A DNA stretch of 35,884 nt from positions 1-35,884 of the forward strand of contig JAFTYU010000010.1 of NCBI GenBank assembly GCA_017461235.1. The letters are read 5' to 3'. The position numbers and the translations under genes were made by a program. Positions within the stretch are counted from its first letter, which is position 1. Every line of letters begins with the position of its first letter. This document shows, one piece after another, positions 9,041 through 14,869 of the stretch. This stretch comes from Clostridia bacterium. GTDB taxonomy: Bacteria; Bacillota; Clostridia; Oscillospirales; Acutalibacteraceae. Under the pieces are notes generated by a model. The model saw nothing but the letters and a program-made list of their open reading frames with translations. It searched no databases and had not been told where the DNA came from.

Positions 9041-11797
9041 TTACAACTCTCTTATATTCTCAACAATACTGTTTTTCATTTCTTTTCGGATTTTTGCGAT
9101 GACACTCAAGGAACATACGGCAAAAAGTATTACACCGAATGCAAGTGTCACCCAGGGATTAAAGGTCATAGCTGCCATAAGTGGTTTAAGCTCAGGTATT
9201 ACGTGAAGGACAAGATAACTTAAACCGAACACACCGAATCCGATACCGAAGCCCCATTTGAACATTGAGAAAAGCTGAAGGATATACGAAAGCGTTATTT
9301 CCTTTTTATTTGCACCTACGGCTCTGAGAGTACCGATTTTCTTTTTATCTTCTTTGATATTTGATGAAAGGGTGTTGTTTATAATACTTCCGCTGATTGT
9401 ATAAAAGAGTATAACTATTGAGCACACAAGAAGCATAACATTTTTTATAGTCTCCCGCTGTTCTATCTGTATTTCATAATTGGATTGATAGTGCCCCTCA
9501 TCAACACAGTCGGCAACGGACTTAAGAATCGCGGTTATCTCTTTATCTATATTCTCGGTACACTCATCCTTAAGGTCAAAGAATATTTTTCTGTACTTAC
9601 AACGTGGGAAGAACTGCTCCATACCCTGTACGGTTGTAATGATACCCCAATCGCCATGTCTCGGTATGATCGTTTCGTCCATAAAGTCAATAACTGCACC
9701 AATTTCAACCTGGTTGTTATTTACTTCAACATTCTCCTTGGTAACTACAGGCTCGCCTTCAATGTCAAAATTCGAGTTATGCACTTCGGAATACAGCAAA
9801 CTCAAATCAAGCTTCTGTCCTGCCTGATAATCAGATTTTCCGGTTGCGATTATTTCAGCCTCGTCACCGCTGTCAATTACATTCTGAATATTCTCCATAT
9901 TATCATAGACACAAAGAGATGAGCCGTATTCATCGACTCTCCTTACGAGATACACTTCCTTTGGAGCATAAACAATAACCTGTTCACCGCTGTTAAGCTT
10001 ATTGACATCAATTTTTCCGTCATAAACATAATTGTTCAGTTCTTCTATAAACTTATCATCAAGAGCTATTATTTCTGTATCAAGAAACTCACCCTTATAC
10101 TCTGCGGCATTTTTGATATCCGTATATTCAGGCGGCATATCGTATTTTATAATACTTCTGTAATTGTCCTTATCAATATTCTGTAATTTACCCGCATCCG
10201 GAACGTTGGTGTATTCGAGACTTGCTAAAAACCGATAATCAGAAAGAGAATCGAAATTATCAATAATAGAGTTAATTTTAGCATTTTTGTAGCCGTATGC
10301 AGTACGTATGTTTTCATTAAGTAAAACCGTCTGTTTATGGTTTTCGGTAAAGCCGTTATTGCCTTCGGGGTAATTCACCGCATAACCACCCGACCAACGT
10401 GACAAACCCAGGCTATAGTCGTAATCTTCCTTGTAAATATCGTTTACAGCATATGTAAAAAACGACATTATATAAGAAGAACTGACAATTGTAATTATAA
10501 GGAAAATGCTTACAAATATCTGTTTGCGTTTTGATATTGTCAAATCTCTTTTTGCAAGAAGCTTATGCACGATAAATTCCTTTTGCGGACGGATTTTTTT
10601 ATTTTTCAGTTTTCTTGCAGTTTCAATATTTCTTATTGCCTGCATTGGGGTAACCCTTGAAGCGGCAAGAAGCGGTATAAGTGACGCTAAAACAACACAC
10701 AAGAGACTGAAAGCACCGCAAAGAAGAAGCACCCATATATTAGGCTCAAAAAAGGCTTCGTCAAAAATATTATTTACAATTAATTTCACTCCGAAGAAAG
10801 ATAAAAGAAGGCTTACGGGAGTACAAACGATGCCGAGAAGCACAGCTTCACGCATAAACAAAGTAAATATTTGTTTTTTTGTGGCACCAACCGCCCGGTA
10901 CAAGCCGATTTGCTTCTTACGTTCCTTTAAATTTGTTGTAAAAGCATTTATAATGCCCATTGACGAGGCAATTAAAAGAATCGCCACAATTATCAGAATA
11001 TATACAAGGGATAATGATTCATCATCGTTCAACGCAAAATCTTCATTAAATGAGAAAACGCAAGAAGATGAAAGAGTCGGTATCTCACTGAACATACCCC
11101 ATATATCATTATAACCTTTATCAGTGAGCTCTGTGTAGCAGATTATATTCTCTTTGCCGCCCAAATCCACGTATTCATACTCGCTTATAAATGCTGAGGG
11201 GATGTTTTGTTTATCGTCAAAATTTGTTGCTATATTTGACCTTTTATCTCTGAGAACACCCGATAAAACATAGGTTTTCTCCTTCACCACGGGCATTAAC
11301 TCATCATCATTCTGAACCTGAAACTTGAGGGTGATTTTATCACCGGGCTTTGCGGCTATGCCCAACTGCAAGAGGGTGGTTTGCTCAATGGCAATCTCAC
11401 CTTTCTTCTGTGGGTATGTACCGCTTATAAATACAGGGTTTACAAGCTCCTTCGAATTCTCATCTAACTTCACGACGGATGTACCGCTGAGTTTATCTTC
11501 CGAATCAGTAAAAACAAACCCTATAACAGAACCCGTACCGATCGTTTCAAACATATGGGATTTTTTCATTTCATCGAAAATATCCTCGTCATAATCAGCA
11601 CACAGCATATCATACAGTCCTCTATCGGCTTTGTTTTGAGCCTTTGAGGTTGTGTACGCACTAAAGCCAAAATATATTATACTCGATGAAAACACCATTG
11701 AAAGAATGATACCCAAAACCATTAATACATACCGTTTTTTACGGTGCTTCAGATTCCCTAAAGCAAGTGAATTGAAGGTTAGTTTTTTCTTTTTCAT
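9041..11797 (-). CDS. ABC transporter permease, FtsX/MacB type, two modules
   Basis: 918 residues. Layout: an N-terminal membrane helix (about residues 24-46), an extracellular domain to about 265, then three helices (about 266-290, 312-340, 352-380) that form the first FtsX module. The second half repeats this: helix near 428-450, a long extracellular domain, and three C-terminal helices (about 765-790, 815-845, 855-880). The motif GLYRAVGATKKQIFTLFMRE before the second helix of module one, and IGTLRAVGANKKEITLSYI in module two, are typical of MacB/LolCE-type permeases. These proteins do not form a through-pore. They couple ATP hydrolysis to movement of an extracellular domain for export or peptide sensing. 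It starts 6 nt after the ATPase gene, with GGAGGTG embedded in the end of that gene. Confidence 0.93.
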   Translation of the reverse strand: MKKKKLTFNSLALGNLKHRKKRYVLMVLGIILSMVFSSSIIYFGFSAYTTSKAQNKADRGLYDMLCADYDEDIFDEMKKSHMFETIGTGSVIGFVFTDSEDKLSGTSVVKLDENSKELVNPVFISGTYPQKKGEIAIEQTTLLQLGIAAKPGDKITLKFQVQNDDELMPVVKEKTYVLSGVLRDKRSNIATNFDDKQNIPSAFISEYEYVDLGGKENIICYTELTDKGYNDIWGMFSEIPTLSSSCVFSFNEDFALNDDESLSLVYILIIVAILLIASSMGIINAFTTNLKERKKQIGLYRAVGATKKQIFTLFMREAVLLGIVCTPVSLLLSFFGVKLIVNNIFDEAFFEPNIWVLLLCGAFSLLCVVLASLIPLLAASRVTPMQAIRNIETARKLKNKKIRPQKEFIVHKLLAKRDLTISKRKQIFVSIFLIITIVSSSYIMSFFTYAVNDIYKEDYDYSLGLSRWSGGYAVNYPEGNNGFTENHKQTVLLNENIRTAYGYKNAKINSIIDNFDSLSDYRFLASLEYTNVPDAGKLQNIDKDNYRSIIKYDMPPEYTDIKNAAEYKGEFLDTEIIALDDKFIEELNNYVYDGKIDVNKLNSGEQVIVYAPKEVYLVRRVDEYGSSLCVYDNMENIQNVIDSGDEAEIIATGKSDYQAGQKLDLSLLYSEVHNSNFDIEGEPVVTKENVEVNNNQVEIGAVIDFMDETIIPRHGDWGIITTVQGMEQFFPRCKYRKIFFDLKDECTENIDKEITAILKSVADCVDEGHYQSNYEIQIEQRETIKNVMLLVCSIVILFYTISGSIINNTLSSNIKEDKKKIGTLRAVGANKKEITLSYILQLFSMFKWGFGIGFGVFGLSYLVLHVIPELKPLMAAMTFNPWVTLAFGVILFAVCSLSVIAKIRKEMKNSIVENIREL

Positions 11798-11803
11798 TAC
11801 CGT

Positions 11804-12490
11804 TTACACCTCCGTCTGTTTGCTGTCTGAAACTACGGAACCGTCTTCGATTCTTATAACTCGGTCTGCCTGCTCGGCAACGTGCAAATCGTGAGTAACA
11901 AGAATAAGTGTTACGCCTAATTCCTTACTTACATATTTAAGAAGTGAAAGCACCTCTCTACCGCTTTTGCCGTCAAGGTTACCAGTGGGCTCATCAGCAA
12001 AAAGGATTGACGGCTTGTTTGCAAGTGCTCTTGCAATGGCAATTCTCTGTTGCTGACCACCGGAAAGAGCAGACGGAAGATGAGAAAGTCTGTCTTCAAT
12101 ACCCAGAATATCAATTATTTTCTTCAGATACTCTTCATCGGGTTTCTTTTTATCCAGCATAATGGGAAGTAAAATGTTTTCATAACCCGTCAATTCTTCC
12201 ACAAGGTTATATGCCTGAAAAACAAAGCCGAAGCGTCTTCTTCGCAAAATGGAAAGTTGATTATCGTTATATTTTTTCAGGCTTTCGCCATTATATATAA
12301 CTTCACCTGACGTTGAGTTTTCAAGACTGCTCAAAACATGTAAAAAGGTAGATTTACCCGAACCCGACGGACCTGTAACAGCACAGAACTCACCTTTTTC
12401 AAATTCAACGGAAACATCATTAAGAGCCACAACAACATTTTCACCGCTTAAATATTCCTTTGTAAGATTTTTACATTCAATAATATTCAT
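11804..12490 (-). CDS. ABC transporter ATP-binding protein (MacB/LolD type)
   Basis: 228 residues, a single nucleotide-binding domain. Walker A TGPSGSGKST (residues 39-48), Q-loop FVFQAYNLVEELTGYENI, signature LSGGQQQRIAIARAL near 143, Walker B ILFADEPTGNLD, H-loop LVTHD. The EPTGNLDG and YENILLP phrases place it with LolD/MacB/BceA-type ATPases, which fits the FtsX-type permease that follows by 6 nt. The ribosome binding site is AAAGGAGAG. Its upstream region carries a 17-nt site shared with the promoter of the two-component system at 13.3-14.9 kb, so activation by that response regulator is likely. Confidence 0.95.
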   Translation of the reverse strand: MNIIECKNLTKEYLSGENVVVALNDVSVEFEKGEFCAVTGPSGSGKSTFLHVLSSLENSTSGEVIYNGESLKKYNDNQLSILRRRRFGFVFQAYNLVEELTGYENILLPIMLDKKKPDEEYLKKIIDILGIEDRLSHLPSALSGGQQQRIAIARALANKPSILFADEPTGNLDGKSGREVLSLLKYVSKELGVTLILVTHDLHVAEQADRVIRIEDGSVVSDSKQTEV

Positions 12491-12585
12491 AGAAAACTCT
12501 CCTTTGAATTTGATTTTTGAGAATACTGATTCTCTATGTTGATTACATTGTAAAACATCAATCTTAATTTTAGGTGACTTTTATC

Positions 12586-12602
12586 TTAAGATTTCGTAAG
12601 AT
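12586..12602. promoter_or_regulatory. Candidate response-regulator site, ABC operon
   Basis: TTAAGATTTCGTAAGAT contains the direct repeat TAAGAT-N4-TAAGAT (10-bp period, as for OmpR-family regulators). It lies about 100 nt before the ATPase start. A near copy is at 14900-14916. A further inverted half-site (AATCTTAATTTTA) lies at about 12560-12572. Confidence 0.55.
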
Positions 12603-12605
12603 TAT

Positions 12606-12643
12606 AAAAACTCTCTCTTTATAAAATCAAAGAGAGAGTTTTT
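12606..12643. terminator. Bidirectional terminator
   Basis: CTCTCTCTTT (12611-12620) / AAAGAGAGAG (12629-12638), with A5 before and T5 after. On the minus strand it follows the hairpin array and the degraded four-helix-bundle gene, ending transcripts from the HK side before the ABC promoter. Confidence 0.85.
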
Positions 12644-12723
12644 CTCGTGCCATAAGGCACATATCGCTCCGAAGGTATATCGCATCGTCAGATATATCGC
12701 AAATCCGCAAGGATTTATATCGC
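12640..12723. repeat. 84-bp direct repeat, copy A (hairpin array half)
   Basis: Identical to 13185-13268 except for one base (T at 12668, A at 13213). It holds four small hairpins, GTGCC-ATAA-GGCAC, CC-GAA-GG, ATC-GTCA-GAT and AAATCC-GCAA-GGATTT, each followed by ATATCGC. It ends 7 nt before the stop codon of the degraded four-helix-bundle gene. Confidence 0.9.
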
Positions 12724-12730
12724 CCACCGT

Positions 12731-13076
12731 TTATTTTTGATTATTTTTTGCAGTCGTTATTGATGCTATTAGTTTTCTGCGAATTGTACCACACTTATTA
12801 TTAAGCTCCTTATATACTGCAGCATCCAATGATTTCACTTTATAAAGAATTTCAAGCCAATACTCAGTTTCATATGTTTCTTTTAAAGCTATCTCCATTT
12901 TATGTATGAAATCAGCACGACTTTGAGCGTATTTGGCTTCGTGGGAATTTGCGCCTATGAATGAACGCCCTTAAAAGTTGATTAACATAAACACTTCGTC
13001 CTTTTATGTTGTCGCAAACTGTTGTTATTTAAACTGTTAACTCTATTGCTAATTCCTTGATTGTTTTATTATCCAT
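12731..13076 (-). pseudogene. Degraded four-helix-bundle (23S rRNA IVS-type) protein gene
   Basis: Reading leftward from the ATG at 13076 (ribosome binding site AGAAAGGAAA) gives MDNKTIKELAIELTV, then an in-frame TAA at 13029-13031, then ITTVCDNIKGRSVYVNQLLR. Near 12965-12975 the frame shifts, and the rest runs on as RSFIGANSHEAKYAQSRADF, HKMEIALKETYETEYWLEIL and a C-terminus CGTIRRKLIASITTAKNNQK, ending at TAA 12731-12733. LLRSxxSIGAN-HEA-YAQSRADF and KETxETxYWLE are the core of the four-helix-bundle family found in 23S rRNA intervening sequences and, more distantly, in Avd proteins of diversity-generating retroelements. About 115 residues are recoverable, close to full length. Two lesions, a stop codon and a net 2-nt loss, make it a pseudogene unless recoding occurs. 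It sits inside the hairpin-array element. Confidence 0.88.
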
Positions 13077-13090
13077 AAATTTTCCTTTCT

Positions 13091-13290
13091 GCGATATATT
13101 TTGCTTACACAAAATGCGATATAATCGACATATTGCCGATTGCGATATATTTGCCTTGCAAATGCGATATGATATAAATCCTCGTTTTCTCGTGCCATAA
13201 GGCACATATCGCACCGAAGGTATATCGCATCGTCAGATATATCGCAAATCCGCAAGGATTTATATCGCTGCCAAGTTTTACTTGGCAATT
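13091..13290. repeat. Array of about eight small hairpins with 7-nt spacer word
   Basis: Successive hairpins ATTTTG/CAAAAT (13098-13115), AATCG/CGATT (13123-13141), ATTTGC/GCAAAT (13149-13163), GTGCC/GGCAC (13192-13205), ACC/GGT (13213-13221), ATC/GAT (13229-13238), AAATCC/GGATTT (13246-13261) and TGCCAAG/CTTGGCA (13269-13287). Between them stands GCGATAT on the left side (13091, 13116, 13142, 13164) and its reverse complement ATATCGC on the right side (13206, 13222, 13239, 13262). The stems differ from each other but the spacer is constant. Positions 13185-13268 are copy B of the 84-bp direct repeat. The array starts 15 nt upstream of the degraded gene's ATG and overlaps the stop codon of the histidine kinase. 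Confidence 0.9.
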
Positions 13291-14194
13291 ATATCGTCTG
13301 ATATCCATCAATATGCGGAAAACACATAATAATATCAAGTCCCGTTGCAGTATTAACAGCACTAATTGTTCCGTGGTGCTTTTCAACAATGGCTTTGGTA
13401 ATCGCAAGACCGATTCCTGCACTTTGAGGCTTGGCGTTTTTAGCTCTGTGGAATCTCTTAAAGAGCTTACCGACATCCTCTTTATCAACACCGCCACCGT
13501 TATCGGAAACCGTGACAATTGTGGAGCGTTCATTTTCTTCAATAGTTATATTGATTTCGCCATTGTTATCGGTATGCTCGCAAGCATTTTTTATAACATT
13601 TCCCAAAGCTTCTGTTAGCCATTCCTTATCACATCTCATTCGGCTTTTACCAACAACATCGAACTGTTTTTCAGGGAAAATATGCTTCATATCAAGGAGT
13701 ATGCTTTTAAGAATTTCGCTGATTTCATAAAACTGAAAATCCATAACATATGTATCGCTTTTTATCTTTTCAAGGCGTAAAAGCTTTGCAACAAGCTCTT
13801 CGGTTTTCTCCACAAGCTGAAGCTCTTTTTCTGTATGCTCTGTGGGATTCTGAGCATTATCCATTTCAAGGTAAAGGCGAAGTCCTGCAAGAGGAGTTTT
13901 CAACTGGTGGGAAACATCCGCAATAAAATCAGTATTCTTTTTAGTTTCGGACTCGGTGTTTTGCTTTTGCACTTCAAGAGCATTTTCCAAATCGCAAACT
14001 GCATTCTGAAGAGGTGCAAAGTTATCATCTTTTGTACTGAATTTTGTCAGTTCACCTTTTTCAAGATATTTATTGATACTTTTTGTAAGTTTTTTCACAT
14101 TTCTTTTGTTTTGGGTAATCAAAAGACTCAGAATAAGAACAACCAAAAGCAATAAGCAAACAGAAATAATCAAACAGATTTCCAAAGGACTCAT
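13289..14194 (-). CDS. Sensor histidine kinase
   Basis: 301 residues from the ATG at 14194, chosen because GGGAGG precedes it and it overlaps the response-regulator stop as ATGA. There is one membrane helix (residues 3-28) with almost no extracellular part, then a basic linker and coiled region, the HisKA phosphoacceptor box DFIADVSHQLKTPLAGLRL (His-96), the N box ALGNVIKNACEHTDNNG, G1 VSDNGGGV and G2 SAGIGLAITKAIVEKHHGTI. A kinase without its own sensor domain often senses through a partner membrane protein, here plausibly the ABC permease 1.5 kb away. Its stop codon lies inside the hairpin array. Confidence 0.95.
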   Translation of the reverse strand: MSPLEICLIISVCLLLLVVLILSLLITQNKRNVKKLTKSINKYLEKGELTKFSTKDDNFAPLQNAVCDLENALEVQKQNTESETKKNTDFIADVSHQLKTPLAGLRLYLEMDNAQNPTEHTEKELQLVEKTEELVAKLLRLEKIKSDTYVMDFQFYEISEILKSILLDMKHIFPEKQFDVVGKSRMRCDKEWLTEALGNVIKNACEHTDNNGEINITIEENERSTIVTVSDNGGGVDKEDVGKLFKRFHRAKNAKPQSAGIGLAITKAIVEKHHGTISAVNTATGLDIIMCFPHIDGYQTI

Positions 14195-14853
14195 TTGCCG
14201 TCCTCCCATCTGTAACCGATGCCCCTGACAGTAACGATATGCTCAGGACCGATTTTCTCACGAAGTCGGCTCATATGAACGGAAAGAGTGTTGTCATCAA
14301 TGTATGAGCCACCCTCATCCCATATATTTTCCAATAAAATTGCTCTTGTAACAATAACACCGCTGTTTCTTATAAGAGCAGAAAGAATCTGAAACTCCGT
14401 AGGAGTAACAAAAACATTTTCGCCATCTTTTTTAACGGTCATTGTGTTTATATCAATAATAATATTTTCGCAACTGTAAACCGTTGATTTGTTTCTTCTT
14501 AAAAGAGCACGGATTCTTGAAAGCAATTCAAGAAGCTTGAAAGGTTTAGTAACATAGTCATCTGCACCTGCATCAAGACCACGGACAACCTGAACCTCAT
14601 CATCGCAAGCAGTTAAAAAGAGTATCGGCACATCCTCGTTCTTCGAGCGAATGAATCCACACATATCAAAGCCGTTACCGTCAGGAAGCATAACATCAAG
14701 GATTATAAGGTTGAAGTTTTCTTTTAAGAAACTCGCCTTTGCATCCTCAATTGTCCCTGCAGTAACAACACCATATCCTTCCTTTTTGAGCATTTCGCAT
14801 AGCCCGTCACGAAGGAAAACATCATCTTCAGTTACAAGAATTTTCACTGCCAT
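14191..14853 (-). CDS. OmpR-family response regulator
   Basis: 220 residues from the ATG at 14853. An in-frame ATG 12 nt upstream would fall at the predicted transcription start, and GGTGA fits the downstream one. Receiver domain with acidic pair TEDD (residues 8-11), phosphoacceptor Asp-53 in LIILDVMLPDGNGF, and the conserved Lys in YVTKPF. The C-terminal winged helix (TPTEFQILSALIRNSG and SVHMSRLREKIG, VRGIGYRW) is typical OmpR/PhoB. It is the first gene of an overlapping RR-HK pair. Its promoter carries a site shared with the ABC operon, so autoregulation is expected. Confidence 0.96.
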   Translation of the reverse strand: MAVKILVTEDDVFLRDGLCEMLKKEGYGVVTAGTIEDAKASFLKENFNLIILDVMLPDGNGFDMCGFIRSKNEDVPILFLTACDDEVQVVRGLDAGADDYVTKPFKLLELLSRIRALLRRNKSTVYSCENIIIDINTMTVKKDGENVFVTPTEFQILSALIRNSGVIVTRAILLENIWDEGGSYIDDNTLSVHMSRLREKIGPEHIVTVRGIGYRWEDGK

Positions 14854-14869
14854 ATTTATCACCATTTAA

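Follow-up and report, generated by a model that had tools for sequence, protein, structure and literature searches.

Arrays in which a 7-nt word alternates with small hairpins are, judged by sequence comparison, a recurring part of a small and apparently mobile element that carries a poorly understood PF05635 gene in a gut bacterium, and repeated 7-nt words likewise flank relatives of this gene in other bacterial phyla. Our preferred reading, which we hold with about even confidence, is that the array in the window (the whole 35,884-nt stretch of DNA that was analysed) forms the end region, built of words and hairpins, of a small mobile element; the sole recognisable gene of this element would belong to PF05635, and its ends would act as DNA.

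In the window, four copies of the word GCGATAT (W) at 13091, 13116, 13142 and 13164 (+ strand) precede four copies of its reverse complement ATATCGC (W') at 13206, 13222, 13239 and 13262. The left half-array (13091..13170, +) alternates its four words with three hairpins, at 13098-13115, 13123-13141 (imperfect) and 13149-13163. It is followed by a connector (13171..13191, no strand assigned), of which 13171-13182 is the exact reverse complement of 13255-13266, that is, of the outer hairpin arm and the start of the last word; the same relation is present in relatives. The right half-array, called R (13192..13287, +), contains the four W' words and five hairpins (13192-13205, 13213-13221, 13229-13238, 13246-13261 and a terminal one at 13269-13287). 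The eight successive hairpins (13098-13287) and the connector relation in relatives were read by eye from the sequence. Taken singly, the word was found 16 times in the window, compared with a mean of 4.34 in shuffles, and the paired pattern GCGATAT-N8-30-GCGATAT gave 9 matches versus 0 in 100 shuffles. The array folded better than all of 200 shuffles, with a z of -7.12 as DNA and, for the fold of the transcript that had been proposed as a check, -6.56 as RNA.

A preliminary description of this DNA is partly supported by these results. Its account of eight tandem hairpins with a constant word and variable stems is borne out by the sequence and the shuffles. The mirror symmetry it described holds for the words and for 13171-13182, but not for the hairpins, which differ between left and right. 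It was also right that the array is not a CRISPR, a candidate rejected because the constant unit is 7 nt long and most intervals are palindromes. CRISPR arrays consist of identical repeats of 20-50 nt with unrelated spacers. Both CRISPR and TIGR (TIGR-Tas) arrays alternate a constant unit with variable units as here, but the variable units of the present array are self-complementary hairpins, its constant unit is 7 nt and its linked gene is PF05635. A described structured RNA was rejected as well, with 0 Rfam matches at gathering score and no tRNA found in the window.

A broken PF05635 gene (23S_rRNA_IVP, a four-helix bundle; 12731..13076, - strand), identified by profile matches, sits between the half-arrays. 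The remnant matches PF05635 at 12767-12958 (E 1.4e-13; to 12970 in another search), and a second piece at 12966-13061 lies in a different frame with one stop. The orthologues at the same site are open in three same-genus relatives, with frames of 127, 127 and 185 aa. Between the array and the gene start is a ribosome-binding-site-like stretch (13077..13090, -). On the other side of the gene lies a second, near-identical R copy (12647..12723, +), with a hairpin at 12647-12660 and ATATCGC at 12661, 12677, 12694 and 12717. A terminator-like stem-loop with A and T tracts (12606..12643, no strand assigned) abuts this copy, and a similar stem-loop stands beside the element in full and solo sites of relatives; this stem-loop and the ribosome-binding-site-like stretch were recognised by eye. 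The second R copy and the gene between the half-arrays had been overlooked in the preliminary description, whose statement that no known family explains the array proved wrong, because the array accompanies PF05635 genes.

The neighbouring genes form a same-strand run (9041-14865, -) of response regulator, histidine kinase, the array with the four-helix-bundle remnant, ABC ATPase and FtsX-type permease, and the insert looks as though it splits a sensor-transporter operon. The window's own genome (G000, 2.15 Mb) has six PF05635 matches at five loci, two of which are flanked by a GCGATAT array. Its locus L033 shows by eye the same architecture with another word, GTGAAAT/ATTTCAC. The array-type protein L031 matches TIGR02436 (E 1.5e-22).

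The association between array and gene was counted in named loci, the best 80 of a longer list fetched by alignment of array-type proteins, which is a query-biased set. A mirrored 7-mer was found within 400 nt upstream of the gene in 71 of 78 loci (two of the 80 were dropped for short upstream sequence), compared with 2/73 and 10/68 in control stretches and a shuffle expectation of 4.75. Written towards the gene, the commonest form in Oscillospiraceae relatives is W-h1-W-h2-W-h3-W-h4-connector-W'-h5-W'-h6-W'-h7-W'-gene, where the connector, read by eye, is an inverted repeat of the first word plus the 5' arm of the first hairpin. The W half is repeated after the gene in the window and in some relatives. 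Four plus four exact 7-mers was the commonest word count (18 of 78 loci from the best 80), not including L128, whose 4+4 7-mer differs from its array word; the one-mismatch 4+4 counts (6/71 and 2/29) are unreliable because loose matching adds spurious words.

Loci chosen by Pfam match gave a second estimate. In the family, 18 of 25 loci had a 7-mer mirrored upstream (12) or inverted across the gene (7), versus 1/25 for a far control; 29 of 30 loci were used (L044 was left out), four of the 29 were dropped at contig ends, and the genomes had been picked mainly for having arrays. In the phylum, the number was 10 of 26 (2 mirrored upstream, 8 across the gene), versus 1/26 for the far control, with L116-L118 left out of the 29 for a partial match or a score under the cut-off. 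Therefore, the mirrored hairpin form is frequent in the family and rare in the phylum sample. PF05635 itself was present in 25 of 119 phylum genomes, 23 of them above the curated cut-off. An RlmD-like C-terminal motif was observed at most 700 nt upstream in 13 of the best 80 named loci (L142-L145, L131, L132, L177 and others). The upstream gene of L143 is RlmD (TIGR00479, E 6.6e-95), and its stop codon (1242-1244) falls inside the array, which begins at 1228.

The array recurs outside the window. The pattern GCGATAT-N8-30-GCGATAT matched 41 times in the own genome versus 0 for the reversed control, and arrays were read at the window and at all of ten other places. At least one match was detected in 101 of 150 family genomes, many of them few and chance-like, while seven of the 150 had at least 20 matches each (control 0 to 2). 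Arrays are also present in other genera. A solitary array and a word at chance level, the two outcomes that the preliminary description had set against its own proposal, were thus not what the search of the genome and its relatives returned. Among the matches listed, a protein at least 70% identical to L031 was held by four of the seven array-rich genomes and by 2 of the 143 others; no GCGATAT-type four-helix-bundle protein at this identity was among the matches listed for G037, G064 and G073. The idea that array-rich genomes require a cognate protein was therefore rejected, and the present-day presence of the gene is not required.

Word and protein are inherited together. On a tree of the 80 proteins (few alignment columns, many open forks), seven words on 71 labelled rows, from a word list made after reading the loci, needed 10 changes, compared with a minimum of 40 and a mean of 44.9 in 200 label shuffles. 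GCGATAT, TCGATAT and GTGAAGT each form one clade; GTGAAAT and ATGAAAT are mixed. This co-inheritance could be explained by plain linkage.

The window site was compared in 22 same-genus genomes, mostly incomplete drafts like the other genomes compared, and 10 of the 22 were not assessed. The full element was found in four (G000, G276, G286 and G282), a single R half in one (G279), no array in five (G275, G273, G272, G277 and G057) and another insert in two (G283 and G284). The empty sites are not clean: they carry different terminators, with flanks 74-91% identical, and the exact joints are unreadable because of these other terminators. At a second site, the array of G286 is absent from G000, G284, G276 and G282, and the site also holds other repeats. 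Both sites were examined for a clean empty site with target duplication: the array was clearly absent in relatives, but the exact joints could not be made out. Neither transposition nor an excision product nor a duplicated target was observed at the sites compared. The two R copies within one element are alike (L212 in G286 and the window), and their loops differ between species. By sequence the paired R copies resemble homogenised direct repeats, and the single R of G279 resembles a solo terminal repeat. Of 64 testable arrays (of 71 labelled), 27 lay at the foot of a stem-loop, versus 108 of 1280 random positions, which is suggestive of insertion there; most arrays do not follow this rule in its strict form, however, and terminators are frequent in intergenic regions.

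Two kinds of neighbouring sequence were also observed. The other insert at the window site in G284 and G283 (L215 and L216) is about 385 nt long and has a very small hydrophobic ORF whose product resembles, by eye, a type I toxin-like peptide. Several gene-less arrays (L012-L018 in the own genome, L236 and L239) adjoin plain heptamer minisatellites of the CTCCTAA, TTACGCA, ACTTGCC and TGCATTT types, as if elements were nested.

The hairpins are conserved. Between-word intervals formed hairpins in 289 of 424 cases in the named loci (71 of the best 80 were used for interval and stem-pair counts), versus 25.6 in shuffles, and in 161 of 171 cases in dispersed same-genus copies (n = 29), versus 11.1. 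Covariation was examined in 14 copies; 15 had been chosen from the 29 for full arrays, and L222 was dropped as misaligned. Hairpin helices were paired in 94.8% versus 92.8 in shuffles, although one helix was paired in only 76.5%. Six hairpin pairs were altered on both sides (shuffled mean 2.3), a number reached by 0 of 500 shuffles. For the nested word pairs W1:W1' to W4:W4', pairing was 99.0% versus 94.3 in shuffles, with 13 both-side cells versus 3.6 (0/500) and 4 both-side pairs versus 2.7 (90/500). In both comparisons, sequences that are related to one another can exceed shuffles of this kind. The word trunk varies exclusively at position 1 of the word, and letters 2 to 7 are invariant. 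In L225, L242 and L244, TCGATAT replaces GCGATAT in all eight words, while the mixed copies L223 and L235 hold words unable to pair. The concerted change of all eight words fits either word pairing or protein recognition and does not tell the two apart.

In some predicted folds the 7-bp word helices form a trunk from which the hairpins branch off, most clearly in L011 as DNA, and the minimum-energy fold deviates from this trunk model in other loci. Serial insertion of hairpins at the word, as put forward in the preliminary description, is unsupported; the hairpins vary partly by compensatory substitution and the word frame is largely fixed, which looks like descent of the whole array.

The loops point to DNA. 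On the W' strand, 85 of 133 three-base loops read C(GNA)G and 50 of 75 four-base loops read C(GNNA)G, so that 135 of 208 obeyed the cGNAg/cGNNAg rule, versus 0 of 208 on the other strand. This set comprises the 208 of 424 intervals with a clean stem and a loop of 3-4 nt (the count excludes 147 that lack a 3-pair stem and 69 whose loops are longer); the AGCTAAA family (58 intervals) contributed no stems, which we attribute to a shifted word boundary. DNA mini-hairpins with GNA or GNNA loops closed by G-C pairs are described as extraordinarily stable in part of the text of PMC4686876. GNRA made up 26 of the 51 GNNA loops; therefore there is no purine preference at the third loop place. Non-Watson-Crick stem pairs, counted with a symmetric rule that does not favour G.U and summed over both sets, were G.T 22, A.C 4 and other mismatches 20 on the W' strand; relative to the gene-sense strand they were G.T 16 and A.C 10. 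These loop and pair counts rest on related, non-independent sequences. Because the favoured fold lies on opposite strands in the two halves, DNA fits better than one transcript.

The array might instead be a structured RNA, either an autoregulatory 5' leader of the four-helix-bundle mRNA or a stand-alone RNA binding the protein through the word. The preliminary description had listed a structured RNA; the DNA-type loops and the opposite structured strands speak against an interpretation purely as RNA, and we consider the RNA explanation unlikely. It gains from the strong RNA fold (z -6.56), from the position of the window array within a same-strand gene run, and from the in vitro cleavage of Coxiella IVS RNA by RNase III (PMC4990558, in part). 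Promoter-like sites separate array and gene in 0 of 13 GCGATAT loci, and arrays of this class, which is that of the window, abut the ribosome-binding site of the gene and are therefore probably transcribed with it. Against this, 11 of 17 loci of the GTGAAAT class have a promoter-like site downstream of the array and before the gene, and the mRNA therefore does not always include the array. Moreover, the loops obey the DNA rule without GNRA preference, the G.T/A.C bias follows the W' strand in each half rather than the gene-sense strand, and the window has no Rfam match at gathering score.

The other explanations concern how the array spread. REP/BIME-like palindromes could have been spread by an unrelated transposase such as Y1/RAYT with the four-helix-bundle gene as a passenger, and the many dispersed intergenic palindromes and the presence of Y1_Tnp in 9 of 12 array genomes agree with this. 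However, Y1_Tnp was not found in G000 (94% complete), G139 (98% complete, 37 array matches) or G275 (76% complete), word identity follows the PF05635 protein, and the array adjoins that gene in 71/78 loci, though these were found through the protein; we regard this explanation as rather improbable. We likewise give little weight to an origin without mobile or recognition function, by replication slippage and template switching at palindromes with local copying by homologous recombination. The direct R copies in one element are near-identical, a solo R exists, and polymerase slippage has been hypothesised for heptamer over-representation (PMC4692102, in part); but compensatory changes, the loop rule, a similar word frame across genera with different words and dispersal to unrelated sites speak against it. 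It would be quite surprising if the array were a template-directed product of a reverse transcriptase, as in diversity-generating retroelements. The hairpin contents are variable in a constant frame and one PF05635 member, L036, has a weak match to the Avd model (6.2e-9; 36.1 bits, below the 80-bit cut-off), but RVT_1 was present in only 4 of 12 array genomes and was not found in G000 (94% complete). Neither Y1 transposase nor reverse transcriptase is thus supported as a universal partner.

The reading as the end region of a mobile element is supported by recurrence, gene association, co-inheritance, hairpin conservation with some compensation, full, solo and empty states, and DNA-type loops. 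Under this reading, the PF05635 (IVP/S23, Avd-like) protein or its complex would recognise the 7-nt word, and the hairpins would fold on the W'-reading strand, in single-stranded or extruded DNA, keeping the words at fixed spacing. Left and right words could pair into a trunk of four 7-bp helices with the hairpins as side branches, and gene-less arrays would be mobilised in trans. Movement of the element is putative, and none of the enzymes sought was common to all array genomes; we know of no catalytic function of PF05635.

The element has likenesses to several known systems. Like REP/BIME with RAYT (TnpA-REP), it comprises dispersed intergenic palindromes, mirrored arrays and DNA hairpins. 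The palindrome of REPs is conserved, and REP/BIME with RAYT has a GTAG or CGTC tag at one end; here the constant part is the linker word, the stems are variable and the gene linked to the array encodes a four-helix bundle rather than Y1. Avd of diversity-generating retroelements is a distant homologue of the PF05635 protein and forms a pentamer that binds reverse transcriptase, and the solved relatives 2RLD and 2GSC have five chains each. Unlike those retroelements, no reverse transcriptase was found in the own genome and no template/variable repeats were noticed.

The 23S rRNA intervening sequence (IVS) shares the protein family of the array gene (PF05635, TIGR02436), and the Azospirillum insert in 23S rRNA has inverted heptamers around its gene. 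The IVS sits in rRNA, whereas the window element is intergenic, between histidine kinase and ABC transporter genes, in a window without rRNA match. Also unlike the IVS, the words alternate with variable hairpins, and the mirrored array precedes the gene, which in some copies is followed by an additional half. An IVS is excised from RNA by RNase III and has terminal inverted repeats that pair; the W and W' words of the present arrays pair in 99.0% of cells, but both of these halves lie on one side of the gene, and in some copies a W half follows the gene. In the Coxiella IVS, two to three tandem heptamers precede the S23 gene and the terminal stem is 28 bp long, and IVS function and origin are called unclear (PMC4990558, in part). 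The heptameric tandem repeats of cyanobacteria, Xanthomonas and Beggiatoaceae have a 7-nt unit and are mostly intergenic, as the array is, but have no hairpins between units, and the available parts of the two papers mention no PF05635 link (PMC4692102, PMC4679880). The same parts suspect horizontal spread of the TAACTGA heptamer by a mechanism that is not evident, and the over-representation of heptamer repeats in bacteria has no settled explanation in the portion of PMC4692102 available. Hairpin-word arrays or a heptamer-IVP rule were not found described beyond these partial precedents in the literature covered, which included few subscription papers or preprints.

Heptamer flanks extend beyond the family. 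At the 26 phylum loci, lag-7 identity was 0.358 upstream and 0.356 downstream of PF05635 genes (controls 0.289 and 0.266), and at least two inverted 8-mers were common to both gene flanks in 23 of 26 loci versus 4 of 26 controls. Six plasmid loci, chosen from 31 matching records to spread taxa, span three phyla (cyanobacteria, Gemmatimonadota, Azospirillum). Their inverted 8-mers across the gene numbered 27, 2, 24, 27, 27 and 13, versus 3, 0, 1, 1, 12 and 0 in controls; Calothrix is weak and the Gemmatirosa control is high. On the Azospirillum lipoferum plasmid AZO_p2 (L209:601-921), a four-helix-bundle match lies inside large-subunit rRNA with inverted heptamers around it, and we identify this insert from its sequence as an intervening sequence flanked by inverted heptamers. 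The PLSDB table lists no feature at this place.

A broader proposal, which we put forward tentatively and with less than even confidence, is that PF05635 genes define a class of mobile elements spread across bacteria, each ending in inverted arrays of a 7-nt word read by its protein. Its members would include 23S rRNA intervening sequences and some of the heptamer repeats that lack an explanation; the plain inverted tandem heptamers at other PF05635 genes, including the 23S rRNA insert, would be simpler ends of the same kind. The window would show the most elaborate form, in which stable DNA mini-hairpins stand on either side of each word and the whole makes a fishbone with 7-bp helices and four-way junctions. 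Tying the IVS and heptamer repeats to one element with a readable word would make it directly testable whether each protein binds its own word, and would supply natural word-protein pairs and DNA hairpins whose variable stems are under selection. The Anabaena sp. 90 plasmid pANA02 (L206) carries, between cas6 and cas4, a four-helix-bundle gene that has inverted heptamers, and such inserts may explain why 23S rRNA IVP is listed beside CRISPR adaptation genes in the part of PMC10910872 available.
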